Below are positions 733 to 28,497 of a DNA stretch of 36,209 nucleotides, one piece after another. The position numbers and the translations under genes were made by a program. Where the stretch lies: the IMG/VR virus record IMGVR_UViG_3300013006_001265, positions 1 to 36,209 of that record, one strand, 5' to 3'. Every line of letters starts with the position of its first letter. Position 1 is the first letter of the stretch. The stretch comes from a virus. Under the pieces are notes generated by a model. The model did no database searches. It saw nothing but the letters and a program-made list of their open reading frames with translations, and was not told the origin of the DNA.

Positions 733-740
733 TATAAATA
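733..740 (+). promoter_or_regulatory. late-type promoter box TATAAATA next to ATG
   Basis: Exact match to the T4 late promoter core TATAAATA, 4 nt before the ATG at 745. In T4 the transcription start lies about 6 nt after this box, so the predicted start is at or just inside the ATG (leaderless). No good -35 lies 17 nt upstream, which favours a late rather than a sigma70 reading. Confidence 0.55.
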
Positions 741-744
741 CGCA

Positions 745-936
745 ATGCGAATACTATATACCACTCTAAGTCTTGCTCCAGCACCCTTGTTCTTTATAGG
801 GTTCTTGTACAGCCTATACGCTCCTAGCCACTTGTGCGGCACAGACTACTCAATGACTGTAATGTGGTTTATAATGATGCTGGCACACACTCTACCTTGG
901 CTGCTATGGTTTCAACAGAGACACCTTACCAGGTAA
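745..936 (+). CDS. small two-helix membrane protein (63 aa)
   Basis: Two hydrophobic segments are visible, about residues 6-25 and 38-56, separated by a short polar loop, with a basic tail (QQRHLTR). Size and topology would fit a small inner-membrane protein, for example a class II holin, but there is no lysis gene nearby, so that is only a possibility. There is no Shine-Dalgarno; a TATAAATA box ends 4 nt before the ATG. It lies upstream of the antiporter gene. Confidence 0.5.
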   Translation: MRILYTTLSLAPAPLFFIGFLYSLYAPSHLCGTDYSMTVMWFIMMLAHTLPWLLWFQQRHLTR

Positions 937-1250: not shown

Positions 1251-2420
1251 ATGATTAATACACTACTCATAATGGCCACTATGGTGTTTGTACCTTGGCT
1301 CATACTACGCACTCTACGACTAGAGCCTTGGATTCCCCTGCCCATGTTTCAGATATTCTGTGGCATCTTGTTGGGACCTTCAGCACTGGGAGCATTTTAT
1401 CCCGAAGTATTTGCTGCTGTGTTTACTCCCGGGGTACGAGCCAGTCTAGATACCATACAGACTCTGGCCATTGTGATCTTTGCCTTTATTGCTGGTCTGG
1501 AATTGAAACCTCGTGAAGTTCTGGCACAAGAAGGTTCTCAGTTATGGACCAAAGCCTTTCAGGTCATATTGGTACCCATTGGATTGGCAGCGGCTGCATT
1601 TTGGTTGTTGTTTGATCATCCGCAATGGCACAATCCCGACGGCAGCACGTGGAAGTACATATGGGCCATGGGTGTTGCCACCTGTATCACAGCCATGCCC
1701 ATGTTGGTCATTGCTTCAAAAAGCCTGGGCATACACGGTACAGATCTCTACCGTAGACTGTTGGCTTTGGTGACCTTTGACGATTTGATCCTATGGATCA
1801 CAGTGAGTCTGATCGTGGCCTTTGGCGAAACCATGCTGCTCAGCAGCTTATTTTTAGTCTCAGCATTTGTTCTGTATCATGTGTGGCCCAAGTTGATGGA
1901 TCACATGGGACCCGCCAGTTGGCCCACACTCACTGTGGTGCTGGTGCTGACTATGGCAGCTTTCAGTCACTGGGCAGGACTACACTATGTACTGGGTGCG
2001 TTCTTTGCGGGCATGATCATACCACGCAAGACCACAGCTTGGCTGGGAGGAATGGATCAACATCAAATGTACTGGCTCATGCCTGTGTTCTTTATTTGGA
2101 CCGGGCTTAAAGTACAATGGTCAGCTGGTCTGGATGTGATTTTGATCGCTGCTGTGGGCATGTATGTGATAGCTGTGACTACCAAATTTGTGGGTGTTTG
2201 GTTGGCCTATCGTTCAGAAGGTCTACAGGCAGTGTTGTTTAAAACTGCAATTTTACAAAACAAAGGCCTAATGGAAATTTTCCTGGCCACTGTGTTGCTC
2301 AAGGCTGCTATAATATCCAGCAACATGTTTGCTGCTGTGGTCATTATGAGTGTGATTTCCACAGTGAGTGCAGTGCCTTTGGCCCGACTGTTTCAACCAA
2401 AACTCAGCAGTTCACGATAA
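1251..2420 (+). CDS. CPA2-type cation:proton antiporter (Kef/NapA-like)
   Basis: A 389-aa integral membrane protein with about 11-12 hydrophobic segments along its whole length and no cytoplasmic domain after them. The early motif with GILLGP (about residues 38-43) and the FIAGLELKP motif (about 80-88) are typical of the monovalent cation:proton antiporter-2 family, as is the paired acid in TFDDLILW (about 175-182), the expected ion-binding DD. Predicted role: Na+/H+ or K+/H+ exchange in the inner membrane. TrkA-N/RCK regulatory domains are absent. The length is near the bare transport core. No Shine-Dalgarno; a TAAATA box lies 7 nt upstream. An antiporter is unusual cargo for a phage. Ion specificity cannot be read from the sequence. 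Confidence 0.88.
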   Translation: MINTLLIMATMVFVPWLILRTLRLEPWIPLPMFQIFCGILLGPSALGAFYPEVFAAVFTPGVRASLDTIQTLAIVIFAFIAGLELKPREVLAQEGSQLWTKAFQVILVPIGLAAAAFWLLFDHPQWHNPDGSTWKYIWAMGVATCITAMPMLVIASKSLGIHGTDLYRRLLALVTFDDLILWITVSLIVAFGETMLLSSLFLVSAFVLYHVWPKLMDHMGPASWPTLTVVLVLTMAAFSHWAGLHYVLGAFFAGMIIPRKTTAWLGGMDQHQMYWLMPVFFIWTGLKVQWSAGLDVILIAAVGMYVIAVTTKFVGVWLAYRSEGLQAVLFKTAILQNKGLMEIFLATVLLKAAIISSNMFAAVVIMSVISTVSAVPLARLFQPKLSSSR

Positions 2421-2423
2421 ATA
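2416..2423 (+). promoter_or_regulatory. late-type promoter box GATAAATA next to ATG
   Basis: Seven of eight positions match TATAAATA. The box overlaps the antiporter stop codon and ends 5 nt before the ATG at 2429, which has no Shine-Dalgarno. It has the same form and spacing as the box before the 28484 gene (GATAAATA, 5 nt, ATG). Confidence 0.5.
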
Positions 2424-2428
2424 TTTGC

Positions 2429-2641
2429 ATGAATCAAACATATCTATTAATCAAAGCTCGTAACACTGTTACAGGGCAAACAATCAAAACACAAGACCTC
2501 ACAGGCGCACGTTTTACTCTCAAACAGCGCAAATTGGCGCAGGACATGGCTGATCAAACAGCTGCCAAAATGAGTGCTAGAACAGGTCAGCTGTGGGAGG
2601 GATATTTGGTAGAATATCAACCCACTGAACGTGCCTCTTGA
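2429..2641 (+). CDS. small hypothetical protein (70 aa)
   Basis: Not recognised. It begins with a beta-strand-like hydrophobic stretch (YLLIKARN), followed by a Lys/Gln-rich helix-forming middle and a Trp/Tyr-containing end (LWEGYLVEYQP). It is a compact soluble protein with no membrane segment. It lies 8 nt after the antiporter stop and shares a plan with the 44-aa protein at 3385 (a YYLV/YLLI start, a T-rich turn and a helix with a conserved aromatic end). The -35 of the next promoter overlaps its last codons. Confidence 0.5.
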   Translation: MNQTYLLIKARNTVTGQTIKTQDLTGARFTLKQRKLAQDMADQTAAKMSARTGQLWEGYLVEYQPTERAS

Positions 2642-4569: not shown

Positions 4570-4806
4570 TTATTTAGCCCACATCAAATGATACATGGCC
4601 AATGTCTGCTCGTCGTAGAATTCTGCCACTAATCTGCAGTAAAGGTCATTTTGTTCCAAGATCAGCTGGCACACATTATGCGGCTGTTCTAGCAGCCATT
4701 TGGTATGATCCAAGCCCAGTGTTTTGTGTACCTTGGGCCAATCTATTGCTATTGTTTCGTTTTCTTCGGGAATCCAGCTTAACAGTGAAACTTTTTTATT
4801 CTTCAT
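4570..4806 (-). CDS. hypothetical protein (78 aa) after gp41
   Basis: Not recognised. It is a soluble, Leu/Glu/His-containing protein with predicted helices (DHTKWLLEQPHNVCQLILEQND). It overlaps the end of gp41 by 11 nt, so it is likely translated from the same transcript. A small helicase-associated factor is possible from position only. Confidence 0.5.
   Translation of the reverse strand: MKNKKVSLLSWIPEENETIAIDWPKVHKTLGLDHTKWLLEQPHNVCQLILEQNDLYCRLVAEFYDEQTLAMYHLMWAK
4571..4578 (-). promoter_or_regulatory. late-type promoter box GCTAAATA next to ATG
   Basis: On the minus strand, GCTAAATA ends 4 nt before the ATG at 4566, overlapping the stop codon of the gene upstream. Six of eight positions match TATAAATA. 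It is a weak match alone; the spacing repeats that of the 733-740 box. Confidence 0.3.
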
Positions 4807-6226
4807 CGTTCATCGAATTTAAAATTTCACGCAGTTTAGTACTTTGTACACTGCCTCGAACTCGACCTAGACTAGAACCCTGTGTAGGATCTATAATTTC
4901 ACCAGTTTCTGCATCTGGTTTTATGGTTGATCTATTTTTAATGCTTTCAATCAGTGAACTAGACCCACGACTGGTAGCACCGTTAGATTCTTGTTCATCT
5001 TCGGGTAGATCACTGATTTTAAGAGTTTCGATATTGAACTCTAGATCAATTTTCATACCCACACCACTGGATGAACGTGTCTTCATCAACTGCAATTGAT
5101 ACCTACCACGTTCACGCATTGCACGACTGGTAAAAATACCAATCACGTTATCTGCGGTTTGAATCTTACTCAAACCACCTGAAATATGACTGAGATCAAA
5201 TTCAACTTCTTCTACTGCTCCACGATTCAACTGCGCCGCAGTCACAAACACACATTGTTTTTCCATTGCTAGATTTCGAAGTTCTTCTGACACATACTTG
5301 TCTTTGACAAACAGATTTTCTGCAGAGATCTTCTTGCCAATGGGCATCAACAGATCCATATAATCTACCAGTAGAACATCAACTTTCTTGCCGCATTTGA
5401 TTTCGTATTCTTTTAGATACGCACGGATATCGTTTACAGTTTTACCCGACGGCATATATTTGACCTGTAGCATACCCGACTTCTTGCCAATCATCTTGAC
5501 TTTCATTTCAATGTCGTCTAGATTCTTAAATATTTCTCTAGTGCTGACTCCAGTGATCATGCTGTCAATACGCATACTTACCAATGCTTCTGAAAGTTCC
5601 AGTGTTAGGTACACCACGTTGAGTCCAGCAAGTGCAAAGTTAACGCCTAGATTTGCCAAGAACAAACTCTTGCCCGCACCTGAACCGCCTGCAAATATGT
5701 TGAGCTCTCCTCGATTGAATCCGCCAAACAACTTGCGATCCATACAGGGCCAGCCTGTACTGACCTGTCCGTTCTTGTCCTTTAATCCCATTAGTCGTGC
5801 TCTAGGATCTGCAAAGTAATCTGTACCCATATCGCGAGCAAGACCAATCTGAACTGCTTCTTTAATCAAGGCCTCGACTTCACCGTAGTTTTTATTTTCC
5901 AACAATTCAGCACTGCTGATAATGGCACGTTCTAGTGCTTTGTGACGAGTAAAGTTTTCAAACTCGTCCAGCAGCCAGTCCATATGGCCTTCTTTCATAT
6001 CTTCTGGCCGTTTGAGATCTGTTCTGCAACTGGCATTTACCATGTCAAAGTCTGGCAATACATTATATCCTTTAGCGTATTCATTCATGAACTCTGCCGC
6101 ATCTTGTAATTTTCGATCAAACAGCGTGTGATCAAAAATACCTTGACAACGAACAAATACTTCTGCATCCGCCAGCATCAATTCAAGGTATAGTTTTTGT
6201 ACTTCGTAACCGTAATCTTTAATCAT
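4796..6226 (-). CDS. 41: replicative DNA helicase, T4 gp41 / DnaB type
   Basis: 476 aa. An N-terminal helical domain (about 1-125) is followed by a RecA-type ATPase. Walker A is GGSGAGKS (about 184-191), Walker B ends LLVDYMDLL (about 283-291), the sensor-like TAAQLNRG follows near 320, and a C-terminal R-finger region is present. Length matches T4 gp41 (475 aa). It should form the hexameric 5'-3' helicase that works with gp61 at the fork. The C-terminal 60 residues are Ser/Glu-rich and probably disordered. It lies just after gp61 but has its own promoter inside the primase end, and no Shine-Dalgarno at the ATG. Confidence 0.93.
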   Translation of the reverse strand: MIKDYGYEVQKLYLELMLADAEVFVRCQGIFDHTLFDRKLQDAAEFMNEYAKGYNVLPDFDMVNASCRTDLKRPEDMKEGHMDWLLDEFENFTRHKALERAIISSAELLENKNYGEVEALIKEAVQIGLARDMGTDYFADPRARLMGLKDKNGQVSTGWPCMDRKLFGGFNRGELNIFAGGSGAGKSLFLANLGVNFALAGLNVVYLTLELSEALVSMRIDSMITGVSTREIFKNLDDIEMKVKMIGKKSGMLQVKYMPSGKTVNDIRAYLKEYEIKCGKKVDVLLVDYMDLLMPIGKKISAENLFVKDKYVSEELRNLAMEKQCVFVTAAQLNRGAVEEVEFDLSHISGGLSKIQTADNVIGIFTSRAMRERGRYQLQLMKTRSSSGVGMKIDLEFNIETLKISDLPEDEQESNGATSRGSSSLIESIKNRSTIKPDAETGEIIDPTQGSSLGRVRGSVQSTKLREILNSMNDEE

Positions 6227-6232
6227 AGTATT

Positions 6233-6261
6233 ATTATATTACCTTTTTTCCTGAAATGCAA
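6233..6261 (-). promoter_or_regulatory. sigma70-type promoter abutting the gp41 start codon
   Basis: On the minus strand: -35 TTGCAT (6261-6256), 17 nt, perfect -10 TATAAT (6238-6233), then AATACT and ATG (6226). The predicted transcription start is the A of the ATG. The -35 lies inside the gp61 coding end. The nearest AAGGT is 15 nt from the ATG, too far for a normal ribosome site. Confidence 0.7.
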
Positions 6262-7252
6262 GACGTGTTTCGAGATTGTTTCTTGCCACTTTAATTTTAA
6301 TTTCACCTTGTTGTGCTGTCTTGATAGCATCAACTGTCACAAATAATTTACCATATTTTTTCACAGCATCTGCACAATCTTTAACATCTTCCGACCAATT
6401 AGGAAATGCCACTGACCAATCGTAGTCTATAGCCTGTTTGATTAACATTAGCCCGGCCTGATCTTGATCAGGAATAACAATAACTTCTTTGCCTAATTGA
6501 TTAATGATGTGTGCCTGTTGTTGTGATATTTCATTGGTTAGTAGCGCAACACCGTCTACAGCCAGCGCATCAAACGGGCCTTCACACACAAATACATATT
6601 TGTTCAAGGCATCTTGAGCATCGACATTAAACACAAAGAAGGGATGCTGATCCGATAGATACTTGGGCTTTCCGTCTTTGACTTTGCGAGCAGTATTACC
6701 AACTACAACTCCATCATACTTAAAAGGAATAATTACACGATCGATAAATCCGGGAGCAGGACTCCAGCAGAAGTTATCATCCATGGGATCGTATCCTCTG
6801 CCTATTAGATAATCAATGACCTTGCCAATATCTTCGGCAATGTCTGGCAAGTATGCACTGTTAACCCACTCTGCAATGGTCAGTGTTGCTTCAGGCAATT
6901 CTTTCTTGGTAAATTTAACCTTTTCAACAAAGTGTTCAGGTTCGTAGTCTAGACTTTCAGTTTTGAGTGCTTCAAAGACCAAATGTTTAATTTCGTCATC
7001 ATCTGCACCAAGCCATCGACACAGTGTTTTAAATTTTTCAGTTAAGGTTCTTCCTGGTTGCCAACTGGCTGTGTATTTGCAGTTGAAACAGTTGTAGACC
7101 ACTCCTTCACTGAACATTATACCAGCACGTTTTCTAGTGTCTCTTGCGTGACCTCTATGTTGACAACAGGGCGCATTGAAACTGATCCACCCACTTGGGC
7201 TAGCTTTGACTCTGGGCAATAATAAACGAAAACGGTCTAAGACAAGTGTCAT
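6239..7252 (-). CDS. 61: DNA primase, T4 gp61 type
   Basis: 337 aa. The N-terminal zinc-binding module has CCQHRGH (about 29-35) and NCFNC (about 54-58), as in DnaG-type primases. A catalytic Toprim fold follows, with the glutamate motif CEGPFDALAVDG (about 220-231) and the acidic pair PDQDQAG (about 256-262). Length is close to T4 gp61 (342 aa). It makes RNA primers for the lagging strand with gp41, the next gene. It is preceded by a near-consensus sigma70 promoter whose predicted start is the ATG, without a Shine-Dalgarno. Confidence 0.93.
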   Translation of the reverse strand: MTLVLDRFRLLLPRVKASPSGWISFNAPCCQHRGHARDTRKRAGIMFSEGVVYNCFNCKYTASWQPGRTLTEKFKTLCRWLGADDDEIKHLVFEALKTESLDYEPEHFVEKVKFTKKELPEATLTIAEWVNSAYLPDIAEDIGKVIDYLIGRGYDPMDDNFCWSPAPGFIDRVIIPFKYDGVVVGNTARKVKDGKPKYLSDQHPFFVFNVDAQDALNKYVFVCEGPFDALAVDGVALLTNEISQQQAHIINQLGKEVIVIPDQDQAGLMLIKQAIDYDWSVAFPNWSEDVKDCADAVKKYGKLFVTVDAIKTAQQGEIKIKVARNNLETRLAFQEKR

Positions 7253-7258
7253 AGACTT

Positions 7259-7287
7259 AGTATACTATCTATATAGTACTTTGTCAA
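7259..7287 (-). promoter_or_regulatory. near-consensus sigma70 promoter abutting the gp61 start codon
   Basis: On the minus strand: perfect -35 TTGACA (7287-7282), 17-nt spacer, -10 TATACT (7264-7259), then AAGTCT and ATG (7252). The promoter lies partly in the 3' end of the BppU-like gene. Transcription should begin at the first base of the ATG. It is the strongest of the three matching cases. Confidence 0.8.
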
Positions 7288-10427: not shown

Positions 10428-10695
10428 GGTCTTTACTCAAGTGATATATGAGTATAGCACGATCCATGGCCTCTTGTAAAGCTGTATTTGTCCGAGCTTC
10501 TCTTCGAATATCGCCCCAAAGTTTATCTTCCTTGATATGGTCGTATAATGGACGGCCATCGTGAGTTCTAGGATCGATTTTATTTTTGTATTGGTAACCG
10601 ATTAATTTTCGATCGGTTTTGCCGGCTTCTCTAGCATAGATTTCTTCGCCGCTCCGTTCATAGACATAGGTTGCACCAGGAGTTAAGGTACCCAT
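10414..10695 (-). CDS. hypothetical protein (93 aa)
   Basis: Not recognised. It is hydrophilic: a beta-rich start (TPGATYVYERSGEEIYARE) and a helical end (ALQEAMDRAILIYHLSKDHGKK). It overlaps the sugar epimerase gene upstream by 13 nt and the gp62-like gene downstream by 14 nt, so it sits at the junction of the glycan and replication runs on one transcript. A role in either group is possible. Confidence 0.55.
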   Translation of the reverse strand: MGTLTPGATYVYERSGEEIYAREAGKTDRKLIGYQYKNKIDPRTHDGRPLYDHIKEDKLWGDIRREARTNTALQEAMDRAILIYHLSKDHGKK

Positions 10696-11519
10696 AATAA
10701 ATCTTCCATAGTATATAATTGCTGCATAAAAGGAGAAGGTATGTCAAGTACACTACTTTCAAGATCGCCTACACGTCTTGGACATACGACAACTTCAAAA
10801 TCACAATTATTAACTTTCTTATACAAGTTAATCATTTGTTTTACTGTTGTACCTACACCATGGCCAAGATTTTCTATTTGATTTGTTGAACGATCAATGG
10901 CCTGTTCTAGAGCACAACAAATTTCATTAACATGAGTGTAGTCGCGTACAGCAGACCTGTCTGGAGTGTTGTAGTCATCACCGAACAAATTAAAAATCCC
11001 AGTTTTCTGAGCATTCATTAAATTCCACATTAGTCCATCTGGATTAGTAGGCATTATACCATCAGATCCTGTTACGTTATAAAATCTAAAAGTAGTAAAC
11101 GGAATAGCTTTTTCTTTACAATATTGATTTACAATTTCTTCAGAGGCTCGTTTGCTAATACCGTAGGGATTGTTCATTGGTCCTGCCGAACCAGTACTGG
11201 CGTGTACAAATCGTTTGTATTTTAATTCTTGAAGAATCCTCAATGTACCTAGAGTATTTGTTTGATAATATTTTATGGGATTTTTTACACTGCGACCAAC
11301 TGCTACTTCTGCTGCTAAATGAATTACACAATCAAATTCAAAATCTCTCTTCCACAGAAAATATCCAGGCATTGTAATATTGTTCCAAGATTGCTCTTTA
11401 ACAGGCAACTGTGGTGGATTTCTATCTAGACCGTAGAGTTCTAAATCGGTTCGCTTGCTTAACAGTTTAGTTAAGTGAGAACCGATATATCCAGCATTGC
11501 CTGTTATCAGTATTTTCAT
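10683..11519 (-). CDS. NAD-dependent sugar epimerase/dehydratase (extended SDR)
   Basis: 278 aa. The Rossmann dinucleotide motif is GNAGYIGSHL (about 7-16), followed by an acidic end of strand 2 (YGLDRN) and the VIHLAAEVAVG motif. The active-site pair is Y-x3-K in NPYGISK. It fits UDP-glucose 4-epimerase/dTDP-glucose dehydratase-type enzymes, though it is shorter than GalE (about 338 aa), mostly through a shorter C-terminal substrate domain. Likely role: making a modified nucleotide sugar for the neighbouring glycosyltransferases. The substrate cannot be read. 4-nt overlap with the FkbM gene upstream. Confidence 0.8.
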   Translation of the reverse strand: MKILITGNAGYIGSHLTKLLSKRTDLELYGLDRNPPQLPVKEQSWNNITMPGYFLWKRDFEFDCVIHLAAEVAVGRSVKNPIKYYQTNTLGTLRILQELKYKRFVHASTGSAGPMNNPYGISKRASEEIVNQYCKEKAIPFTTFRFYNVTGSDGIMPTNPDGLMWNLMNAQKTGIFNLFGDDYNTPDRSAVRDYTHVNEICCALEQAIDRSTNQIENLGHGVGTTVKQMINLYKKVNNCDFEVVVCPRRVGDLESSVLDIPSPFMQQLYTMEDLLWVP

Positions 11520-12175
11520 TTATAAACCATAACGCAGTCTTTTGGCCAACTGACTTCCATAGTGTATCCCCAAGACAACAAAAGATCAACTGCTAAATTT
11601 CCTTCCTCACCGTAATACCGTTTTGAATAGTTTTTTTCTTCCATCAATATTACAGGTCTATATTTTTTAATAGTTTGCTCGGCACCTTTTAGAATATAAG
11701 GCTCATATCCTTCGCAGTCTAATTTTATAAATCCAACTTCTGTTAATTCGAAAGAATCTAAAGTTTTACAAATATGTGTTCCAGCAACTTCTTTATTGAT
11801 ATGAGTACCGAAACTAGTTTTTTCGTGAGTTAAAGAAACAAGTTCTTCTTTGTCACTTAACCCACAATCACATACTACTACATTATCTAATTGAAATTTT
11901 TCTACATTTTTTATAAGACAATCTCGAACTGGAGTATCCACTTCAAATGCATAAATCTTAGAAAACTTGCTGTTTAAGTTATAACTCATAATGCCATAGT
12001 TAGCACCTGCATCTATAGCTGTAGTAAAATTATTAACAAATCCTAATGCACTATCGAGTTTACTTTTTTGATAATCAAGAACACAAGGTGCTCGATCAGC
12101 ATTAACGTCTGCTTTTTTAAGAGCCGATCTTACAGCCTTGTCTCCCGGTATCACTATCCAGTCTTCGATATTCAT
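11516..12175 (-). CDS. FkbM family methyltransferase (1)
   Basis: 219 aa. The SAM-binding motif I is IDAGANYGI (about 54-62), then a strand ending in an acidic residue (IYAFEVD), a motif with VCDCGLSDK, and the family signature FIKLDCEGYEPYILKGAEQTI (about 149-169), typical of Methyltransf_21. These enzymes commonly O-methylate sugars in glycans or antibiotics. It differs from its neighbours by a longer N-terminus (about 50 residues before motif I). Flanked by an epimerase and gmd. Confidence 0.8.
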   Translation of the reverse strand: MNIEDWIVIPGDKAVRSALKKADVNADRAPCVLDYQKSKLDSALGFVNNFTTAIDAGANYGIMSYNLNSKFSKIYAFEVDTPVRDCLIKNVEKFQLDNVVVCDCGLSDKEELVSLTHEKTSFGTHINKEVAGTHICKTLDSFELTEVGFIKLDCEGYEPYILKGAEQTIKKYRPVILMEEKNYSKRYYGEEGNLAVDLLLSWGYTMEVSWPKDCVMVYK

Positions 12176-12188
12176 ATTGTGTATCTCG

Positions 12189-13169
12189 TTAAGTTTTATT
12201 TTTCTGCAATCTTTTTAAATCTGCATCTACCATTTCTTTAATCAGTGTTTCAAAATTTGTTTTTGGTTGCCATCCCAGCACCTTTTTAGCTTTAGCACTA
12301 TCACCACACAAACTGTGTAATTCTGCAGGACGTTTAAATCTAGGATCTAATTCGATATATTTTTTCCAATCCGTAATTCCAACATGAGAAAACCCAATAG
12401 TCAACAGATCTGCAATACTATGTTGAATACCAGTACTTACTACATAATCCCCCGGTTCTTCTTGTTGTACCATCAGCCACATGGCTTCTACAAAATCTCC
12501 AGCATATCCCCAATCTCTCTTGCTGTCAAGATTACCTAGGGTTAGTTTATCTTGTAATCCTAATTTTATTTTAGCAATTCCGTTGGTAACTTTTCTAGTT
12601 ACGAATTCTATTCCTCTCAATGGACTTTCATGATTAAACAAAATTCCATTTGATGCGTGTATGCTATAGCTTTCTCTAAAATTAATAGTCATCCAGTATG
12701 CATATAATTTGCTAACTCCGTACGGACTTCTTGGTTTAAAAGTTGTATTCTCATCCTGCATCCCGCCGTTACTATTACCGTACATTTCACTAGTGCTTGC
12801 CTGATAGTATCTAGACAATGGACTGTGCATTTTTATAGAATTTAAAATATTTAACGGGCCTAGGCTATTAACTTCTGTAGTTAATTTGTTTAAATCCCAA
12901 CTAGCACCAACAAAACTCTGTGCAGCCAAATTATAAATTTCATTAGGTTTTAAATTTTTAATAATATGATTCATGGAACCGTCGTCGGTAATGTCTCCAG
13001 TTACTAACTCAACATCGTTTTCAATTCCTAAAAATTCGAGATTATTTAAATTTGGATTAGAATATCTTTTTATTAAACCGTATACTTTATAATCTTTTTC
13101 AAGAAGAAATTTTGCAAGATAGGGACCATCTTGTCCTGTCATTCCTGTAACAAACGCTACTTTTTTCAT
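12189..13169 (-). CDS. gmd: GDP-mannose 4,6-dehydratase-like SDR
   Basis: 326 aa. The N-terminal motif TGMTGQDGPYLAKFLL is close to the canonical Gmd sequence TGITGQDGSYL. Catalytic residues are visible in STSEMYG and SPYGVSK (Y-x3-K), followed by FNHESPLRG, SKRDWGYAGDFVEAMW and RFKRPAELHSLCGD, all Gmd landmarks. Expected reaction: GDP-D-mannose to GDP-4-keto-6-deoxymannose, the precursor of fucose, rhamnose, perosamine and similar sugars. It is shorter than E. coli Gmd (373 aa) but has all core motifs. No partner reductase (WcaG/Rmd) or aminotransferase is obvious; the 278-aa SDR nearby might serve. Confidence 0.9.
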   Translation of the reverse strand: MKKVAFVTGMTGQDGPYLAKFLLEKDYKVYGLIKRYSNPNLNNLEFLGIENDVELVTGDITDDGSMNHIIKNLKPNEIYNLAAQSFVGASWDLNKLTTEVNSLGPLNILNSIKMHSPLSRYYQASTSEMYGNSNGGMQDENTTFKPRSPYGVSKLYAYWMTINFRESYSIHASNGILFNHESPLRGIEFVTRKVTNGIAKIKLGLQDKLTLGNLDSKRDWGYAGDFVEAMWLMVQQEEPGDYVVSTGIQHSIADLLTIGFSHVGITDWKKYIELDPRFKRPAELHSLCGDSAKAKKVLGWQPKTNFETLIKEMVDADLKRLQKNKT

Positions 13170-13894
13170 TTTATTTTTTTCCTTAATTTAGCTATTTTTT
13201 CATCTCTTTTTTCTTTTCTATTTCCTTTAAAATGTATCATGTATCCTTTAAAGGTTTGATTAAAATGGCTTTTTGTGATGTTAGGTGTAATATTATAACC
13301 TGTTATCTTTTTAAGATTTTCTAATTCTTTTCTAGTAGCGTCAAACACGTGACAATCAGTGTATGCTTCTAGTGTATATATTTTATCAGAATCGTAATAA
13401 TTTTTAAAAATATCAAAAAATTCTTGGGTATGAGGATTTCTTAAATCAAATGCAATAAATCCAGTTTCACTATACGTGTCTCTGCCTAGATAGCTGGTAA
13501 AATATCCGGTTGGTAAAAACTTCTGCAAATATTCTGCCGACACCTGTTGGATTAATTCGGTATCGGCATCTAGCCAAATTAGTATATCTACACCACTATG
13601 CATTGCGGCATGCCAAATAGCATAACTTTTATGACTAAATCTCACTCCGTCGTTTATAAATGAAGTAACAGGTTTAGTTTTATTCCTATTTTTAAATTGA
13701 GTCAACTCAGGAACTGCTTTTTCTAAATTTATAATGTTTACATTATGATTTTTTTTAAATAATCTTTTATTATCATCTATATAAAGAAATACTTCAACTC
13801 TTTTATCTAAATTATTGTTAAGACTGTGTACAAAGTTTTTTGCATAATCTGCATATCCTTGATCGCTAAAAGTTGATACGATTCCAATTTTCAT
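13166..13894 (-). CDS. glycosyltransferase (GT-A-like, DxD) paralog 1
   Basis: 242 aa. The start KIGIVSTFSDQGYADYAKNF begins a GT-A Rossmann half; the metal/nucleotide-sugar motif is in ILIWLDADTE (about 105-114). Then come an acceptor-side YLGRDTYSETGFIAFDLR block and a CHVFDATR motif. It is clearly related to the 20585 plus-strand gene, which has WMDADT, YLGRKGKYSECG and SFVFDAVR at matching positions. The C-terminus is very basic (KGNRKEKRDEKIAKLRKKIK). Sugar donor unknown. 4-nt overlap with gmd. Confidence 0.75.
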   Translation of the reverse strand: MKIGIVSTFSDQGYADYAKNFVHSLNNNLDKRVEVFLYIDDNKRLFKKNHNVNIINLEKAVPELTQFKNRNKTKPVTSFINDGVRFSHKSYAIWHAAMHSGVDILIWLDADTELIQQVSAEYLQKFLPTGYFTSYLGRDTYSETGFIAFDLRNPHTQEFFDIFKNYYDSDKIYTLEAYTDCHVFDATRKELENLKKITGYNITPNITKSHFNQTFKGYMIHFKGNRKEKRDEKIAKLRKKIK

Positions 13895-14569
13895 TTATAG
13901 TCCTAGTTCTTTTTTAAAATTATTAATAGCAGATAGTCTATGTGTATCGATTTTTGAAAACAATAAATCTAATTGTATTGTGTTGCCGGATTTGTTGGTA
14001 TGCATGCCAACAATATCCTGAATAAAAAAATTAAAATCTTCCATACGGCGTACGATAACATCTGCTAACGGTGCACCTTCGTTATATGGAATTAACGAAA
14101 CTTCAATAATAATATATGAAGAATTAATCAAGGTGGTAACTCCACCATTTATAACATCTAGTTCAGCACCTTGAACATCAATTTTAATTACATCAAATTT
14201 CTTAGTGGAAAATAAAGTATCTAGAGTAGTAACCGGAACGGTAATTTTAAGTATTTGATCATCAGATACACTATTAAAATTAATTTCTTTATAGAATGAT
14301 CCACCTTTAGAATTGAGTTTAAATTTAGGAACAATCAGTTCTAACTCTCCAATTTTATCAGAGACAGCACATTGCAAATAATTTACTCCTAATTTTCTAA
14401 GACCTTTTTCACAATGAGGATTCGGCTCAATTGATGTTACTTCACAGTTAGGAAATATTTTCCGCCATTCTGTAACAAACTGCCCGGTGTTTGCTCCAAC
14501 GTCAAGACAGGTAACAGGCACGAAAGAAGAAAATGCTGTTTTAAGTTTGTGTGCTATGGGATCGCTCAT
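13895..14569 (-). CDS. FkbM family methyltransferase (2)
   Basis: 224 aa. Motif I is LDVGANTGQF (about 19-28), then VTSIEPNPHCEKGL, CAVSDKIGELEL, and the signature VIKIDVQGAELDVINGG (about 121-137). The C-terminal part carries a DIVGMHTNKSGNTIQLDLLF segment usual in FkbM proteins. It has almost no extra N-terminus. It immediately follows the next FkbM gene upstream (4-nt overlap), forming a tandem pair of divergent paralogs. Confidence 0.85.
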   Translation of the reverse strand: MSDPIAHKLKTAFSSFVPVTCLDVGANTGQFVTEWRKIFPNCEVTSIEPNPHCEKGLRKLGVNYLQCAVSDKIGELELIVPKFKLNSKGGSFYKEINFNSVSDDQILKITVPVTTLDTLFSTKKFDVIKIDVQGAELDVINGGVTTLINSSYIIIEVSLIPYNEGAPLADVIVRRMEDFNFFIQDIVGMHTNKSGNTIQLDLLFSKIDTHRLSAINNFKKELGL

Positions 14570-15216
14570 TTATTGTCCTCATGCACCCAAATGTAATCAC
14601 GTTTAATTTTTGTTGCAGGAATATATCCTAAATCAGTTAGGAAAGATGACAAGATATCAAATTGTATTTTAAACTCTGCTTCCAAAATAATAACAGGCTT
14701 ACATCGCTCAATTGTTTTAATTGCTCCCTGCAGCACAGGAAATTCAAACCCCTGAGTGTCAATTTTTATTAAATCTGCCTCAAGCTGAAGATCGTCTAAT
14801 TTTATAATTTGAATTTCTTCTTTTATTAATTCGTCGCTGTTAGACTGAAAATCAACTATTGAGTAGTTTCCGCAATTGTCTGAAGACGCCGGCAAAGAAA
14901 TAACAGTTTCCTCATTACAACTACCCAACCCGTAGTTATGTAACACTATGTTTGTAAAACTTTTACAATTTTCTTCAAGACACTTGAAGTTAGATGTTAC
15001 TGGTTCAAAAGAATGAACATGTTTAAATTTTTGTGCAAATCTAACAGTGTGTAACCCTACATTTCCTCCAACATCGATTACAGTATTAAATTTTTTTACA
15101 AAATTATATGATGCATCGATTGTCAATTGCTGATATGTTGTATCCGGATATTGCAACAGATATATTTCAAAATGCATGTCATTATCTGGCATGGCCCAGC
15201 CTTTAATTTCCTTCAT
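14566..15216 (-). CDS. FkbM family methyltransferase (3)
   Basis: 216 aa. Motif I is IDVGGNVGLHTVRFAQKF (about 48-65), then HVHSFEPVTSNF, VLHNYGLGSCNEE, and the signature LIKIDTQGFEFPVLQGA (about 147-163). The C-terminal tail ends KRDYIWVHED, matching KRNFVWAP of the 22194 copy, so these two are the closest pair in the window. The short N-terminus (EIKGWAMPDND) likewise resembles that copy (KNGWMVPEDD). The start overlaps the cupin stop. Confidence 0.87.
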   Translation of the reverse strand: MKEIKGWAMPDNDMHFEIYLLQYPDTTYQQLTIDASYNFVKKFNTVIDVGGNVGLHTVRFAQKFKHVHSFEPVTSNFKCLEENCKSFTNIVLHNYGLGSCNEETVISLPASSDNCGNYSIVDFQSNSDELIKEEIQIIKLDDLQLEADLIKIDTQGFEFPVLQGAIKTIERCKPVIILEAEFKIQFDILSSFLTDLGYIPATKIKRDYIWVHEDNK

Positions 15217-15557
15217 TTACTAAATCCCACTGTCTCTCTGGTAATATCATCATGATCAAACTCTGCCCAATATAATTCAAAGGCAATGCAATCAGTGACT
15301 GCTTCAAACTGATGATATTCACCCGGAGCAACTTTGGTATATTGCCCAGCTTTTAATAATGTTTCATCCACTAGATCATAATTATTCTTCCACACACGAA
15401 TGATCATCTCGCCGGACTCTACAAAAAATCCATTCCATTTAAATTTGTGTGTATGCTTTGAACATACTCCTCCTGCTCGAGCTTCGATTCTATGAAATTC
15501 TAAAACGCCATTGGCTTCTAGTAATTCTGTCTGACCCCATACTTTTCCTTGTTTCAT
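15213..15557 (-). CDS. single-domain cupin protein (114 aa)
   Basis: One conserved beta-barrel cupin: the first metal motif is seen as GGVCSKHTHKFKWNGFFVESGE (about 29-50, with two His and a Glu) and the second as APGEYHQFEAV (about 76-86). Similar small cupins occur as mannose-6-phosphate isomerase type II or sugar-binding domains in glycan clusters; the C-terminal part of the 27726 fusion is of the same kind. Likely role: sugar isomerisation, epimerisation or binding. AAGGA lies 8 nt before the ATG. Confidence 0.75.
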   Translation of the reverse strand: MKQGKVWGQTELLEANGVLEFHRIEARAGGVCSKHTHKFKWNGFFVESGEMIIRVWKNNYDLVDETLLKAGQYTKVAPGEYHQFEAVTDCIAFELYWAEFDHDDITRETVGFSK

Positions 15558-15580
15558 ATTGTATCCTTATTTTTTACTTA

Positions 15581-16087
15581 TCACAAAACTTTATCCAGTT
15601 GTAGTATTTCACTTTGTCTGCTAACTTCCTTAACAAAATATGCACAGGGCGGGTTAGGATCATCGTGTAAAGGAACAGTTAATAACTGTCCGTTTTTCAT
15701 TTTAGGAAAATACCAACGAACGTCTTGATAAATGTTAACGATCTCTATGGGCAGATATTCACATTTGAATCCATTTACTGGATTAAAAATAAATGCATCA
15801 AATCCACGTTCATTAATACTGGTCAACGGTAATACTTCCGGATCCATACCGCAGTCACGATCTCCTACTATCATACACCAGTCTAATGGCATCTGGATTT
15901 CATATCCGCCAATGTTTAACAATATTGCAGGGCTATTAAATGATTCAAGAAAAATCAGCGGCATGAAGAAGAAATCAGGCTCGTTGGGATTTGAATTGTC
16001 TAGTACTGAAAATCTTGTATCTTCATCTACCTCATCTGGTAATTCATTTAGATCAAAAGATCTATTGTTTAGTGTTAGTATTTTCAT
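15581..16087 (-). CDS. hypothetical protein (168 aa)
   Basis: Not recognised. It is soluble, acidic and Pro-rich, with a pattern of beta-strands (FFFMPLIFLES, GGYEIQMPLDWCMIVGD) and aromatic residues (WYFPK). It lies inside the glycan/UvsW operon but shows no transferase motif. The segment with C-M-I-V-G-D-R-D-C-G-M-D (about 71-82) has two Cys and several acids and may be a metal-binding or functional site. It could equally be an unrelated core phage gene. Confidence 0.55.
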   Translation of the reverse strand: MKILTLNNRSFDLNELPDEVDEDTRFSVLDNSNPNEPDFFFMPLIFLESFNSPAILLNIGGYEIQMPLDWCMIVGDRDCGMDPEVLPLTSINERGFDAFIFNPVNGFKCEYLPIEIVNIYQDVRWYFPKMKNGQLLTVPLHDDPNPPCAYFVKEVSRQSEILQLDKVL

Positions 16088-16091
16088 TATT

Positions 16092-16646
16092 TTATTCCGT
16101 GTAATATGCTATCGTATCGCTCTTCCATTTTCTTACTGTGAATCCCAAGTCTAGAAGAACTAAAATTACCTGGTCGGCTTCATTTCTTTTATTTTCAAAA
16201 AATATTGTTGGTCGATGTTTTTTAATTGTTTTTATTCCACCAGTTACAACTTGAAGTTCGTATTGTTCTGTATCTATTTTAATAAAATCAACATTTTCAA
16301 ATTTAAAATCGTCAAGCCTTTTTACTTCAACTTCGAACTTTTCTCCGTTGGTCCAATCTTTATTTCTTAATTCGGAGAGAGATCCGTGTTCAGGATTATG
16401 AGTTGTATCATTCATAACTAACAACTTTGTTTCATTAGTATTACCTAACGCACAGTTATGACATATTAATTGGGGGAATTTCAATAATTCTTTAAAGCTG
16501 TTAGGATTAGGCTCGAAGCAATAAATTTTTTCAAACTTTCCAATGTAAGGGGATGAAGTTTTACCGGTACTTGCTCCGATATCTATGTATGTTCTAAAAT
16601 TTTTAATATAGGGCCAAGCCCATTCGGATAGTTTTTTTTCACTCAT
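16092..16646 (-). CDS. FkbM family methyltransferase (4), short
   Basis: 184 aa. Motif I is IDIGASTGKTSSPYIGKF (about 18-35), followed by IYCFEPNPNSF, CHNCALGNTNE and the signature FIKIDTEQYELQVVTGG (about 120-136). Here the usual Gly/Glu after DT-x-G is replaced (DTEQYE in place of DTQGxE), a departure from the other four copies. The short C-terminus ends soon after the last core strand. It overlaps the end of UvsW by 4 nt. Confidence 0.8.
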   Translation of the reverse strand: MSEKKLSEWAWPYIKNFRTYIDIGASTGKTSSPYIGKFEKIYCFEPNPNSFKELLKFPQLICHNCALGNTNETKLLVMNDTTHNPEHGSLSELRNKDWTNGEKFEVEVKRLDDFKFENVDFIKIDTEQYELQVVTGGIKTIKKHRPTIFFENKRNEADQVILVLLDLGFTVRKWKSDTIAYYTE

Positions 16647-18097
16647 ATATTGACCTTAGTTATTGTAAAGGGGTATTTGGCCTCTTTATAGTATTTCTTC
16701 CGCTCCGTAAGATGGCGCTTGGCGTATTTGCAGGTAGATGTGAAATCCCAGATCTCAACGTGGTCTTTGTCTTCTGCTTTTCTAATGCCTCGCCCAATGC
16801 TTTGTATAACGCGGACAAAGCTCTTTCCGGGCTCAATAAGAACCAGATTAAAAATACGGGGGATATTAATACCCACAGCGGCCACACCGTAAGTCGCCAC
16901 AATAATCTTATCAGCACTAGTTTTAATTTCATCATATTCTTCTTTTCTGTCAGTTAATTTAACTGCCCCGCTAATGAATACACTGTCTGGCAACATTGCA
17001 GTTAATTTGTCACCTGTGTCGATTCTATTGACCAACACAAGAGTATTACCAGTCTGAGAAATTTCTTTGATCTTATTTCCCATCCAACTGATACGGTGAT
17101 CATCGGTGACTAGAAAACTATATTCTTCTTGATAATTACGGAATACCTGTACGTCATTGGTTTGAAGAATGTTGATCTGTAAATTGGCCAATACGCCTTT
17201 TTCTTGTAAATCGTGCGCAGATACTTGATTGATTACTGGTCCTATACTGGCCAGTATGCCTTGAAATTCCCAAGCTTCTTTGGGCACAGTACCTGTAAGC
17301 CCCCAACGTATTGCACAGTTGCTAAAGTTCTGTGTCAACAATTTAGTTAATACCTCTGCCTTGGCCTGATGTACTTCGTCTATGATAATAGCTGCTACAC
17401 CCTCGATGAATTCTGCCAAGCTCAGTGTGGCATCGTCATAACTTTTCTTATCAAGAACATTGAGACTCTGCCAGGTGCAGATAGTGTGTGTCTTACCTAA
17501 TTCTTTTCTGTCGCCAAAATATACGCCAACATCCAACCCTAGATTTCGATAATCTTCTTCAGTCTGCACAACTAGACTTTTGTTGGGTACAATGACCATT
17601 GTGCGGCCATAAGGCTCACATAAGTGACTGAGTGTGGCAGTAGTAATGGTTTTGCCTGCACCTGTAGCAACTTCTTGTAAGGCCTGTGTATTAGCTAGAA
17701 ATTTATTGACCACAGCATACTGATAATCTCGTAGCACAATAGGAGTGCCGGCTTGTGGATGACCCAACGGCCAAGTCTTGCCTTGATCAGCCCAGTAATT
17801 TTCTGTGATAGGTTCAAATTTTATTTGACTGTGTTGTCTTAAATCTTCTATGTCAATTTCGTATCCTGCATCTTCTATTATAGGAAGTATTACATCAAGA
17901 TGTGCAAGATATCCGGTGCCGCCGATACCAAAATAAGTTTTTGTTCCGTCCCATCTGCCTAGCTTATATGCTGGCATATGACGTGCATAAGGCAAATCAA
18001 ACTTTAATTTGTTGGCAATCTTTCGTCGTGTTTCTACTGCAAGTCCTTCGAACTTGATATTGACTTCGTCTTTAATTATAAGTTTACAAGATGTCAA
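16643..18097 (-). CDS. uvsW: UvsW-type RNA/DNA helicase
   Basis: 484 aa. The N-terminal DNA-binding domain, with LPYARHMPAYKLGRWDG (about 35-51), is characteristic of T4-type UvsW. SF2 motifs follow: I is ATGAGKT (about 142-148), II is IIDEVH, III is GLTGT, V is ATYGVAAVGINIPR, VI is QSIGRGIRK (about 441-449). It would unwind branched DNA and R-loops at the switch from origin- to recombination-dependent replication. The start is TTG, supported by GGGG about 9 nt upstream; it overlaps the 398-aa gene by 14 nt. Length is close to T4 UvsW (502 aa). Confidence 0.93.
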   Translation of the reverse strand: MTSCKLIIKDEVNIKFEGLAVETRRKIANKLKFDLPYARHMPAYKLGRWDGTKTYFGIGGTGYLAHLDVILPIIEDAGYEIDIEDLRQHSQIKFEPITENYWADQGKTWPLGHPQAGTPIVLRDYQYAVVNKFLANTQALQEVATGAGKTITTATLSHLCEPYGRTMVIVPNKSLVVQTEEDYRNLGLDVGVYFGDRKELGKTHTICTWQSLNVLDKKSYDDATLSLAEFIEGVAAIIIDEVHQAKAEVLTKLLTQNFSNCAIRWGLTGTVPKEAWEFQGILASIGPVINQVSAHDLQEKGVLANLQINILQTNDVQVFRNYQEEYSFLVTDDHRISWMGNKIKEISQTGNTLVLVNRIDTGDKLTAMLPDSVFISGAVKLTDRKEEYDEIKTSADKIIVATYGVAAVGINIPRIFNLVLIEPGKSFVRVIQSIGRGIRKAEDKDHVEIWDFTSTCKYAKRHLTERKKYYKEAKYPFTITKVNI

Positions 18098-19280
18098 ATG
18101 TTTTTGCCCCTTTGGGTAGCGTTGGTTTTATTTCTCCTAGATAAATGACACAAGGATGACTGCCCATCCAGTCGTTTACATAGGTATTGGAATTAATATA
18201 TAAGCTGTTTGTAACAACAATTTTAACATCAATATTATCTTTGAACAACCACTTAGACGGTTTATGTTCAAATATAAAAATTTTTCCGTCTTCAACAGGT
18301 CCACCGAGACCATTGTCTTTTATCCATTGATTAAGTCCGCTATTAGATTCTTTGGATTCTCTAAAACAAATTCTAATATCAGACTTTAAAATTTGGCATT
18401 TTTTAGAATCTTTTATAAAGTTTTCTAACCATTGTTCTTTGTTAGACGCACGATCTAACACTATACAAATTTTGCCATCTATTTTTTTATATACATCAAA
18501 CAACTTTTCGTTACTATCGATCCAAAAAACATTATTACCGCTTGATGCAATTTTTTCCACAAGTTCTTGTGATTTTGAAATAAGGTTCAAGGGAAATTGC
18601 ATTGATTTTGCCAGCAGCATATCGTGATAGATATTACCGTTTGAATTTTTTTCAAAGTATGCATCTGCATATTCATTGCTGTTTATCAAGACTAATTGAT
18701 TTTCAAAAATTGTGCTGTAAGGTAAAAAATCTTCCTGATTGGCCCATATTTCTTCCACTGATTCTACAGCTTCCAAAAAAGAATCATCTATGTCAAAATG
18801 ATGTTTCTGTAAAAACTCATAAAGGGCCACGACATTAATTTCTGAAAATTTTATTTCTCTTAGTTTTTTTTCTTGATTCCATTTAGAGTGTCTAAAATGG
18901 TCTTGTGTTTTCGAAAATTCTCGGTCAAATACTTCTTTCATACTGAACGGAAATTTTAAAAATATTAAAAGTTCTCCAGTCTCGTCTTTTTCTACAAATA
19001 TTTTTTTAGTGAGATCTAGAATTCTAAACTCGTTTTTCCATACTGGATTTTCAATTTGATCAGCGTAGTCGAAATTATATTTTTGTGCTATGACCTTGTG
19101 TTTTTTCAGTATTTTTATGATCAGTCCAGCCTGACTTTGAGTCAATTGGGATCCATTTGATATCAATGAATAAAAATTATAAGTAGCACTTTGATCTTGA
19201 CCCGTTAACACAAAACCGTGACGCACCATAAGATTATAAAATTCTAAAAAGATGTCTTCGATGTATTCGTAAGGTATCAT
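18084..19280 (-). CDS. hypothetical protein (398 aa) upstream of UvsW
   Basis: Not recognised. An open frame extends upstream to 19400, but I place the start at the ATG (MIPYEYIEDIF) at 19280, because a strong promoter ends 6 nt before it and the longer version would overlap the 19312 gene. The N-terminal half is helical, with a DQSATYNFYSLISNG segment; the C-terminal half alternates strands and helices (NNVFWIDSNEK, KICIVLDRASN, VKIVVTNSLYINSN, HPCVIYLGEI), like a degenerate P-loop or Rossmann fold without a Walker A. Position and promoter class group it with replication-recombination genes, next to UvsW. Confidence 0.7.
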   Translation of the reverse strand: MIPYEYIEDIFLEFYNLMVRHGFVLTGQDQSATYNFYSLISNGSQLTQSQAGLIIKILKKHKVIAQKYNFDYADQIENPVWKNEFRILDLTKKIFVEKDETGELLIFLKFPFSMKEVFDREFSKTQDHFRHSKWNQEKKLREIKFSEINVVALYEFLQKHHFDIDDSFLEAVESVEEIWANQEDFLPYSTIFENQLVLINSNEYADAYFEKNSNGNIYHDMLLAKSMQFPLNLISKSQELVEKIASSGNNVFWIDSNEKLFDVYKKIDGKICIVLDRASNKEQWLENFIKDSKKCQILKSDIRICFRESKESNSGLNQWIKDNGLGGPVEDGKIFIFEHKPSKWLFKDNIDVKIVVTNSLYINSNTYVNDWMGSHPCVIYLGEIKPTLPKGAKTFDIL

Positions 19281-19286
19281 TGTTAC

Positions 19287-19315
19287 ATTATAACACCGAT
19301 AATTTTTAAAATCAA
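19287..19315 (-). promoter_or_regulatory. sigma70-type promoter abutting the 398-aa gene start
   Basis: On the minus strand: -35 TTGATT (19315-19310), 17 nt, perfect -10 TATAAT (19292-19287), then GTAACA and ATG (19280). The geometry is identical to the gp41 and gp61 promoters; no Shine-Dalgarno is present. Confidence 0.7.
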
Positions 19316-20166
19316 CGATGTGCGTATAATAGATGTTCGATGTGTGCTTGTAGTCTAAGAATCGGCGTGCCCTGACTAATTTCTTCCACAGTCCATTCAC
19401 TGTGACACAGTTTTAAAAACCATTCATCTCGATTGGGCAGTTGGGGATTTTCTAAATTTTCCCATTTTTCACTGACCGAATGTGCCAAACTTGAACTATC
19501 GCATATTATAGGAATTCCATTTATTGCGGCCTGCACTCCCGGTCCACTGTTGTGATTTATTACACAATGATAATTGTAATTGATGTCAAAATCGTCGTAG
19601 CTGCCTTGTATTTTTTTTGGCATTTCAACCACAGCATCTATGAATTTTTCACAAATTTGAGATCTGGGATGGGATCTAACCACAATTTTTCTATCACTGT
19701 ATTTTTTTATTTTAATAATTGTTTGCTTGATCCATTGTTCCATCGACGGCTGATCACACCATTGTAAACTAGCACTGTGTTGACAAGCAATTAGAATCTC
19801 ATCTCGTCGATAATGGTTAACAGGTCGAAGCGAAACACCTAAAATTTGTGGTCTTGCTAGATCTAAATCTTGTTGATTGCCGAATATGCCAAAATTGTTG
19901 ATGTGATTTAGACCTATTCGCCAAGTCGCTCCTCTTTTTAAATTTCCTACCTCAATGATTATAATAGGTCTGTGATTTTTTATAGAATTTTCATAAATTA
20001 ACTTATTTGGCCGCATTCTTCCCTGCCATAGCACGGACCAAATCACACAAACGTCTTCATCTTTGTCTACTATTGAGTGTCCTAGCTTTTTTAAACCTGC
20101 AGAAAAGGCAGCAAACACAGGTATACTGTTTAGTGCTCCATTTTCTTGATAAATTCTAAAACGCAT
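19312..20166 (-). CDS. GT-B-like glycan transferase family, member A
   Basis: 284 aa. The C-terminal half carries the pattern shared by six proteins here: W-IKQTIIKIKKYSDRKIVVRSHP (about 145-168), then HCVINHNSGPGVQAAINGIPII (about 203-224) and DEWFLKLCHSEWTVEEI near the end. This layout resembles the C-terminal domain of capsule (KpsC/KpsS-type) and CDP-glycerol-type GT-B transferases. Members A and C share the same N-terminal motif (IIEVGNLKRGATWRIGLN in A), unlike B, D, E and F. Enzyme activity is inference. Its promoter crosses that of the divergent plus gene. Confidence 0.65.
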   Translation of the reverse strand: MRFRIYQENGALNSIPVFAAFSAGLKKLGHSIVDKDEDVCVIWSVLWQGRMRPNKLIYENSIKNHRPIIIIEVGNLKRGATWRIGLNHINNFGIFGNQQDLDLARPQILGVSLRPVNHYRRDEILIACQHSASLQWCDQPSMEQWIKQTIIKIKKYSDRKIVVRSHPRSQICEKFIDAVVEMPKKIQGSYDDFDINYNYHCVINHNSGPGVQAAINGIPIICDSSSLAHSVSEKWENLENPQLPNRDEWFLKLCHSEWTVEEISQGTPILRLQAHIEHLLYAHR

Positions 20167-20175
20167 TTTGTTTGC

Positions 20176-20183
20176 AATAAATA
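20176..20183 (+). promoter_or_regulatory. late-type promoter box AATAAATA (plus)
   Basis: Seven of eight matches to TATAAATA, 12 nt before the ATG at 20196. The predicted leader is about 7 nt, with no clear Shine-Dalgarno. It interleaves with the minus box at 20190-20197. Confidence 0.45.
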
Positions 20184-20189
20184 TATGAG

Positions 20190-20197
20190 TATTTAAT
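20190..20197 (-). promoter_or_regulatory. late-type promoter box ATTAAATA (minus)
   Basis: Six of eight matches on the minus strand, ending 23 nt before the 20166 ATG. It lies across the start codon of the plus gene, so both boxes and both start codons fall within 33 bp. Confidence 0.35.
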
Positions 20198-20603
20198 GAA
20201 ACCTATGAACAAGTTTATTAAAAGAATTAGTAAATCAAAAAAAAATATTAGAAATATTCTAGTGGTAGGCACTGGATGGGAAAAATTACCAAATCTTTGT
20301 GATGGTTTTTCCAGCGTGTTTATAATTTCTACTGGGCCTCAAGACTTTCGAAGAAAAAATCTCATTTACAAGGAAAGTTTTGATCAAATAGAAACACTCC
20401 CAGACATAGATGCCATTGTGATGGATAGAGACCAAGATATTCATGTGTCTAAATTTCTTCCTTTACTCAACAGATATCAATCAGTTATACTAGTTCAGGG
20501 TGTTGAGTTGTTTGGAAAAGCAGAATACAAGTTTTTAAAAACATACGGATACGCTGTTACAGAAATGTTTGGAGATTCGCACTTATGGAAAAAAATAAAT
20601 TGA
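20196..20603 (+). CDS. hypothetical protein with Rossmann-like start (135 aa)
   Basis: After a basic leader (MNKFIKRISKSKKN) a strand-turn NILVVGTGWEKLPNL (about 20-34) resembles the first part of a SAM- or nucleotide-binding Rossmann fold; later strands are AIVMDRD and SVILVQGVELFG. At 135 aa it is shorter than a full methyltransferase, so it is either a minimal domain or a remnant. First of three plus-strand genes within the minus glycan block; its end overlaps the next gene by 19 nt. Confidence 0.6.
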   Translation: MKPMNKFIKRISKSKKNIRNILVVGTGWEKLPNLCDGFSSVFIISTGPQDFRRKNLIYKESFDQIETLPDIDAIVMDRDQDIHVSKFLPLLNRYQSVILVQGVELFGKAEYKFLKTYGYAVTEMFGDSHLWKKIN

Positions 20604-28484: not shown

Positions 28485-28489
28485 GCAGA

Positions 28490-28497
28490 TATTTATC
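28490..28497 (-). promoter_or_regulatory. late-type promoter box GATAAATA next to ATG
   Basis: On the minus strand GATAAATA, TCTGC, ATG (28484). Seven of eight matches to the late core. Predicted start about the ATG; no Shine-Dalgarno. It heads an operon of eight overlapping glycan genes ending at the 22082-22120 terminator. Confidence 0.55.

Follow-up and report, generated by a model that had tools for sequence, protein, structure and literature searches.

Two promoter classes phased onto start codons point to leaderless mRNAs in an uncultured jumbo-phage lineage

We asked whether three genes in a 36-kb IMG/VR virus record (36,209 nucleotides, here called the window) are transcribed from their own start codons, and how widely such an arrangement is used. 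All three lie on the minus strand: gp41 (promoter and start at 6224–6261: TTGCAT at 6261–6256, TATAAT at 6238–6233, ATG at 6226), gp61 (7250–7287: TTGACA at 7287–7282, TATACT at 7264–7259, ATG at 7252), and a 398-aa gene (19278–19315: TTGATT at 19315–19310, TATAAT at 19292–19287, ATG at 19280). At each, 17 nt separate the hexamers and 6 nt separate the -10 from the ATG, so that the predicted +1 is the A of the ATG (6226, 7252, and 19280, respectively). A sequence-only reading had called these three exact repeats; their positions and spacing are as it described, but the hexamers differ among the sites, so only the geometry is repeated exactly. The -35 of gp41 is weak (three of six consensus bases). 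It had also described the starts as lacking a Shine-Dalgarno (SD) sequence, and none is present at -5 to -15 before any of the three, while other genes in the window do carry one (e.g., those starting at 2690, 9284, 31333, and 35055).

The pattern TTG-N20-TATANT-N6-ATG occurs three times in the window against 0.03–0.05 expected, and three occurrences were reached in none of 450 Markov-1/3/5 shuffles, in agreement with the earlier claim that chance is an unlikely explanation. One could still argue from composition, TATAAT being often found near ATG in AT-rich intergenic DNA: single hexamers are frequent (47 exact copies in the window), and loose criteria give a background of ∼17–27 sites per three offsets. 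Taken alone, however, these hexamers show no clear distance preference and their window-only statistics are uninformative, whereas the bipartite pattern stands far above shuffles, reversed controls, and neighboring distances, and its geometry at gp61 recurs in 56 of 56 sequences (see below). We consider an origin by chance or composition extremely improbable.

Profile searches identified gp41 (4796–6226, minus strand, 476 aa) as a DnaB-like replicative helicase (PF03796, E = 1.6e-19; phrog_19, E = 7e-71) and gp61 (6239–7252, minus strand, 337 aa) as a primase (phrog_47, E = 1e-31). The conserved 398-aa gene (18084–19280, minus strand), which overlaps the UvsW-like helicase gene (16643–18097) by 14 nt, matched no Pfam or PHROG family, and its AlphaFold model (pLDDT 82) gave a best PDB match with E = 0.012 and a poor TM-score. 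The proposal that the layout stands before replication or recombination genes is thus borne out for gp41 and gp61 and unproven for the 398-aa gene, since the latter has neither a family match nor a confident fold; moreover, other gene classes carry the layout too. It is not special to replication genes, and promoters of two types show it.

The window, judged by protein similarity, is a member of an uncultured jumbo-phage lineage near PA5oct, Atu_ph07, and 121Q. The closest isolates for its gp41, single-stranded DNA-binding protein (SSB), and gp61 are PA5oct/Paride, Phosso, Atu_ph07, Vibrio 2.275.O, XaC1, and 121Q with their relatives, all below 60% identity. One viral scan returned 80 uncultured relatives that are much closer; their contigs, the longest of 280 kb, are unannotated, incomplete fragments. 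A search of bacterial genomes with gp41 gave no match that would point to a host, and a search with a phage S21 protein gave two distant, uninformative matches.

Comparison of the motif spacing in relatives, proposed in the sequence-only reading as one check on its claim, revealed strong conservation. We compared 55 distinct gp61 upstream regions with that of the window (n = 56). The -10 is exactly 6 nt from the ATG in 56/56, and TTGAC at the -35 is invariant (TTGACA in 55, TTGACG in one), while the -10 itself takes five forms (TATACT 31, TATAAT 18, TACAAT 3, TAAACT 3, and TAAAAT 1). The 6-nt discriminator has 24 different sequences, which shows that the distance is kept while the sequence drifts, and the -1 base is always a pyrimidine (T in 47, C in nine). 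The final codons of the upstream gene, with its stop, contain the -35 and spacer; in 53 sequences this stop occupies -15 to -13. In all 53, the Asp codon within the -35 is GAC and the codon before it ends in T, even though the residue of the latter varies among V, I, L, and F. Third positions elsewhere in this coding stretch (-37, -28, -25, -22, and -19) do vary. Synonymous sites frozen in the -35 and variable nearby indicate that selection acts on the gp61 promoter. The gp61 sites are not of the MotA-dependent T4 middle type, in which a MotA box near -30 replaces the -35 hexamer: TTGAC stands at -35, 17 nt from the -10, in 56/56. A palindrome resembling an operator within the gp61 spacer (ACTATAYAGATAGT) was also dropped, because this sequence codes for the conserved C-terminal residues of the upstream protein (GTVDKILYR-stop, up to -13).

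The same data bear on whether the -10-like element might be a translation signal instead of a promoter, i.e., an AU-rich stretch bound by S1. An AU-rich stretch just before the AUG can promote initiation, which speaks for the idea. Yet AU-richness explains neither the fixed 6-nt distance nor the late-type peak described below, and it leaves unexplained an invariant TTGAC exactly 17 nt away, kept even at synonymous sites of an overlapping gene. We regard a purely translational role as highly implausible, and read the elements as promoters.

A TANNNT element lies 5–7 nt before the homologous ATG of the 398-aa gene in 8/8 relatives. The gp41 site is less constant: among 50 nonredundant relatives, a TATAAT-like -10 stands 5–7 nt from the ATG in 32 (exact TATAAT in 27), none of these 32 with an SD, and the close -10 is missing in 18. 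In some of the latter, an inserted ORF of ∼200 aa precedes gp41 and bears the close promoter itself (L022, L074, L051, and L019).

Across the lineage, the exact sigma70 pattern was found 65 times in 15 large relatives, against two for the reversed control. We then measured d, the distance from promoter to ATG, in eight contigs (1.53 Mb nonredundant after masking repeats between contigs). Following TTG-N20-TATANT, ATG stands at d = 6 in 45 cases against ∼3 per neighboring distance, most other near distances having 0–7, and a broad hump follows at ∼24–35 nt. Following ATAAATA, ATG stands at d = 5 in 47 cases (∼4 at neighboring distances) and at d = 4 in 23, with a hump from ∼16 nt. Reversed patterns gave one (sigma70) and three (late). 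Treating sites as independent, Poisson P is ∼1e-35 for sigma70 at d = 6 and ∼1e-32 for late at d = 5; homologous sites are not independent, so these values and the Fisher test below overstate significance. Both distributions are thus bimodal, with a leaderless peak and a leadered hump, and at sigma70 d = 6 ATG is enriched and GTG and TTG are not.

Near and far sites also differ in their flanks. A strict SD accompanies 0/61 near sigma70 sites and 107/176 far ones (Fisher P = 3e-20), and 3/73 near and 19/119 far late sites. The -1 base is a pyrimidine in 39/46 near against 66/176 far sigma70 sites (P = 6e-9), and in 60/68 near against 65/119 far late sites (P = 2e-6). Counting ORFs of at least 40 aa, 20 protein clusters lie behind the sigma70 peak (d = 6) and 24 behind the late peak (d = 4–5), and several of the clusters recur in five to nine of the nine scanned sequences. 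Among their members are gp61 and gp41, a nuclease similar to SbcD, a DnaJ-like protein, an AAA ATPase, and many short early-looking ORFs, as well as a tail-tube protein, a head-tail adaptor, and further virion proteins. A rough census of 1629 ORFs, using a looser sigma70 rule with notable background, assigned 134 to a close promoter, 532 to an SD, and 963 to neither. In a 280-kb contig (G001, 69–82 kb, L129–L130), six near-consensus TTGACA-17-TATAAT promoters stand within ∼13 kb, all of them 6 nt ahead of a start codon; several share the discriminator ACACAC, and the region resembles an early gene region.

The late layout had been missed in the sequence-only reading. In the window, TATAAATA lies 4 nt before the ATG at 745 of a 63-aa ORF (733–747, plus strand; +1 predicted at the A or the base beside it). 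GATAAATA lies 5 nt before the ATG at 2429 of a 70-aa ORF (2416–2431, plus strand) and 5 nt before the ATG at 28484 of a 252-aa nucleotidyltransferase-like gene (28482–28497, minus strand); both are predicted to be leaderless, and the same layout occurs in five and seven of the scanned phages, respectively. All three share ATAAATA. A gp55-family sigma factor is encoded in all six of the largest contigs and was not found in the two smallest of the eight, so that the lineage has both a TATAAATA-like element and a phage gp55 sigma factor, as expected of gp55-type late promoters.

Transcription by sigma70 usually starts 6 nt after the -10, and T4 late transcription ∼5 nt after TATAAATA. With these offsets, the peaks at 6 (sigma70) and 5 or 4 (late) would bring +1 to the A of ATG or to a neighboring base. 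Many first-of-unit genes would then have a promoter set so that transcription begins on the A of the start codon, either a host sigma70-type promoter (TTGACA-17-TATAAT, ATG 6 nt on) or a T4 gp55-type late promoter (ATAAATA, ATG 5 and sometimes 4 nt on). With +1 at the A of the AUG, which we infer from the geometry, the mRNA would be leaderless and without SD, and its 5′-terminal AUG would have to be recognized directly by the ribosome, probably in the form of a 70S particle that carries initiator tRNA. The suggestion in the sequence-only reading that this could tie early replication-gene translation to 70S initiation is a prediction as to both timing and route. Other genes of the same phages would have normal leaders of ∼15–30 nt, often with SD, and inner genes, gp41 among them, may gain expression from read-through mRNA and coupling. 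The -10 to +1 offset can vary by a few bases, and a leader of 1–3 nt is possible at individual sites.

That last point leads to a further alternative, in which the promoters are real but the start is shifted by a few bases, or translation proceeds mainly from read-through mRNA by coupling, the spacing being a product of genome compaction. The gp41 ATG is just 12 nt past the gp61 stop, its d varies from 5 to 7, and upstream genes abut or overlap, all of which fit compaction. Compaction would permit any distance, however, whereas the sharp peaks at 6 and at 5/4 match the start offset of each promoter class; a trough separates the near peak from the leadered hump; the -1 base is a pyrimidine; and no SD serves the close-promoter starts. 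We judge this alternative unlikely. The geometry, its conservation, the absence of SD, the initiator-like -1 pyrimidine, and the synonymous-site constraint are all observed, and a predicted +1 on or within a few nucleotides of the start codon coincides with the lack of an SD. Leaderless mRNAs are therefore the most likely products of these genes; the 5′ ends are predicted, and conservation in relatives strongly supports the earlier proposal. That the lineage has many promoters phased so that an SD-less mRNA begins at the start codon seems to us very probable.

The named isolates differ. The sigma70 layout showed no excess (0–1 matches) in T4, 121Q, Phosso, Atu_ph07, Vibrio 2.275.O, or XaC1, equaled its control in SCTP-2, and gave three against one in Paride; the late layout showed no clear enrichment in any of the eight isolates. 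The statement that T4 itself does not follow this pattern holds, no leaderless peak appearing in the T4 scan. At gp61, the natural reading in PA5oct and Paride is TTGACA-17-TATAAT-6-GTG. The annotated start is 6 nt too early in PA5oct and 102 nt too late in Paride, where homology extends upstream of it; the likely starts, 6 nt after the -10, are L084:1959 in Paride (OR805295.1, 17178) and L201:162 in PA5oct (MK797984.1, 145890), with the predicted 5′ end of the latter at or next to it. In SCTP-2, a weaker TTGACA-16-TAGCAT-6-ATG precedes a start that is not annotated (L089:1951; MF360958.1, 160185); this phage probably shares the layout, its annotated start likely being wrong. Annotated starts in such genomes can thus be misplaced, as seen for gp61 of Paride and PA5oct and likely for that of SCTP-2. 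In eleven other isolates gp61 is leadered, and most of these genes carry an SD of the AAGGA or GGAGG type; that of Atu_ph07 is weak.

All eleven isolates with a leadered gp61 encode IF3 (one at L172:33944–34447), and IF3 was not found in PA5oct, Paride, SCTP-2, or the incomplete clade contigs searched. IF3 can antagonize leaderless initiation, and for this reason gain or loss of an IF3 gene, if the association is real, would have to accompany a rebuilt primase promoter. In the gp61 tree, the leadered and leaderless-type states form two groups each; with so few independent changes, the association is only a lead. We offer as a tentative and rather doubtful idea that leaderless and SD-led regimes operate side by side, that long evolution has settled which of them each gene uses, and that the choice is tied to initiation-factor biology, phage IF3 carriers having leadered gp61. 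No family match to a phage IF2 or S1 was found in the incomplete clade contigs searched. Six of eight large contigs encode a tRNA with a CAU anticodon, among only one to three tRNAs each (L092:2356–2432, L101:2144–2217, L115:16713–16790, L129:9473–9550, L149:6075–6147, and L170:14436–14513). Four of them (L092, L101, L115, and L129) were read: three have G1-C72 and resemble Ile2 or elongator Met, and the fourth (G002, L101) has a C1×A72 mismatch but not the three G-C pairs of an initiator. A phage-supplied initiator tRNA was rejected on these four sequences. In the 280-kb contig, the gene directly downstream of one for a phage ribosomal protein S21 (L192:1453–1755) has a leaderless-type promoter.

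The usual subjects of work on leaderless translation are lambda cI, which is transcribed from PRM at its own AUG, and bacteria in which such translation is widespread. The cI mRNA is leaderless, and a leaderless initiation route has been described (PMC9031893); cI is one gene of one phage, whereas the layout described here extends across a lineage and involves some 20 protein clusters of the sigma70 class and 24 of the late class. Most middle and late mRNAs of the large Thermus phage phiYS40 are reported to be leaderless, host IF2 rising and IF3 falling during infection, and the host phylum uses leaderless genes widely (PMC3594737). The present lineage, where leaderless mRNAs are predicted from sequence, differs in consisting of gp55-encoding relatives of PA5oct and 121Q with consensus sigma70 and T4-type late promoters and a large SD-led gene set. 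In Deinococcus-Thermus, a -10 a few base pairs before the ORF, with specific spacing, has been experimentally tested and gives leaderless mRNA (PMC12340547); that is a bacterial phylum, often without a -35, whereas these phages have a full -35/-10 and a second, late promoter class. T4 likewise has ATAAATA as its late motif and a sigma factor of the gp55 family, but no leaderless peak. AR9 was rejected as a leaderless jumbo-phage precedent, its UTRs being 26–491 nt. We found no report of the layout for these phages in the open-access literature. Leaderless phage transcripts and close -10/ORF spacing are thus known already; what we rate as new is the phasing of two promoter classes onto the AUG in a jumbo-phage lineage, beside SD-led genes. 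Conserved core genes are among those with the layout (primase, helicase, tail tube, head-tail adaptor, and SbcD-like nuclease), and the lineage appears to be a natural experiment for asking when leaderless initiation is preferred, and for what reason.

Two further features of the window were seen. Between the replication genes, a long series of sugar-nucleotide, methyltransferase-like, and glycosyltransferase-like ORFs (∼10683–28484) was recognized by eye from N-termini, with a profile run for 27726–28484 only. The window has no T4-type polymerase; in its place, a 557-aa fragment of a DNA polymerase III alpha-type polymerase (31784–33457) adjoins genes identified by profiles as a gp32-type SSB and UvsX.
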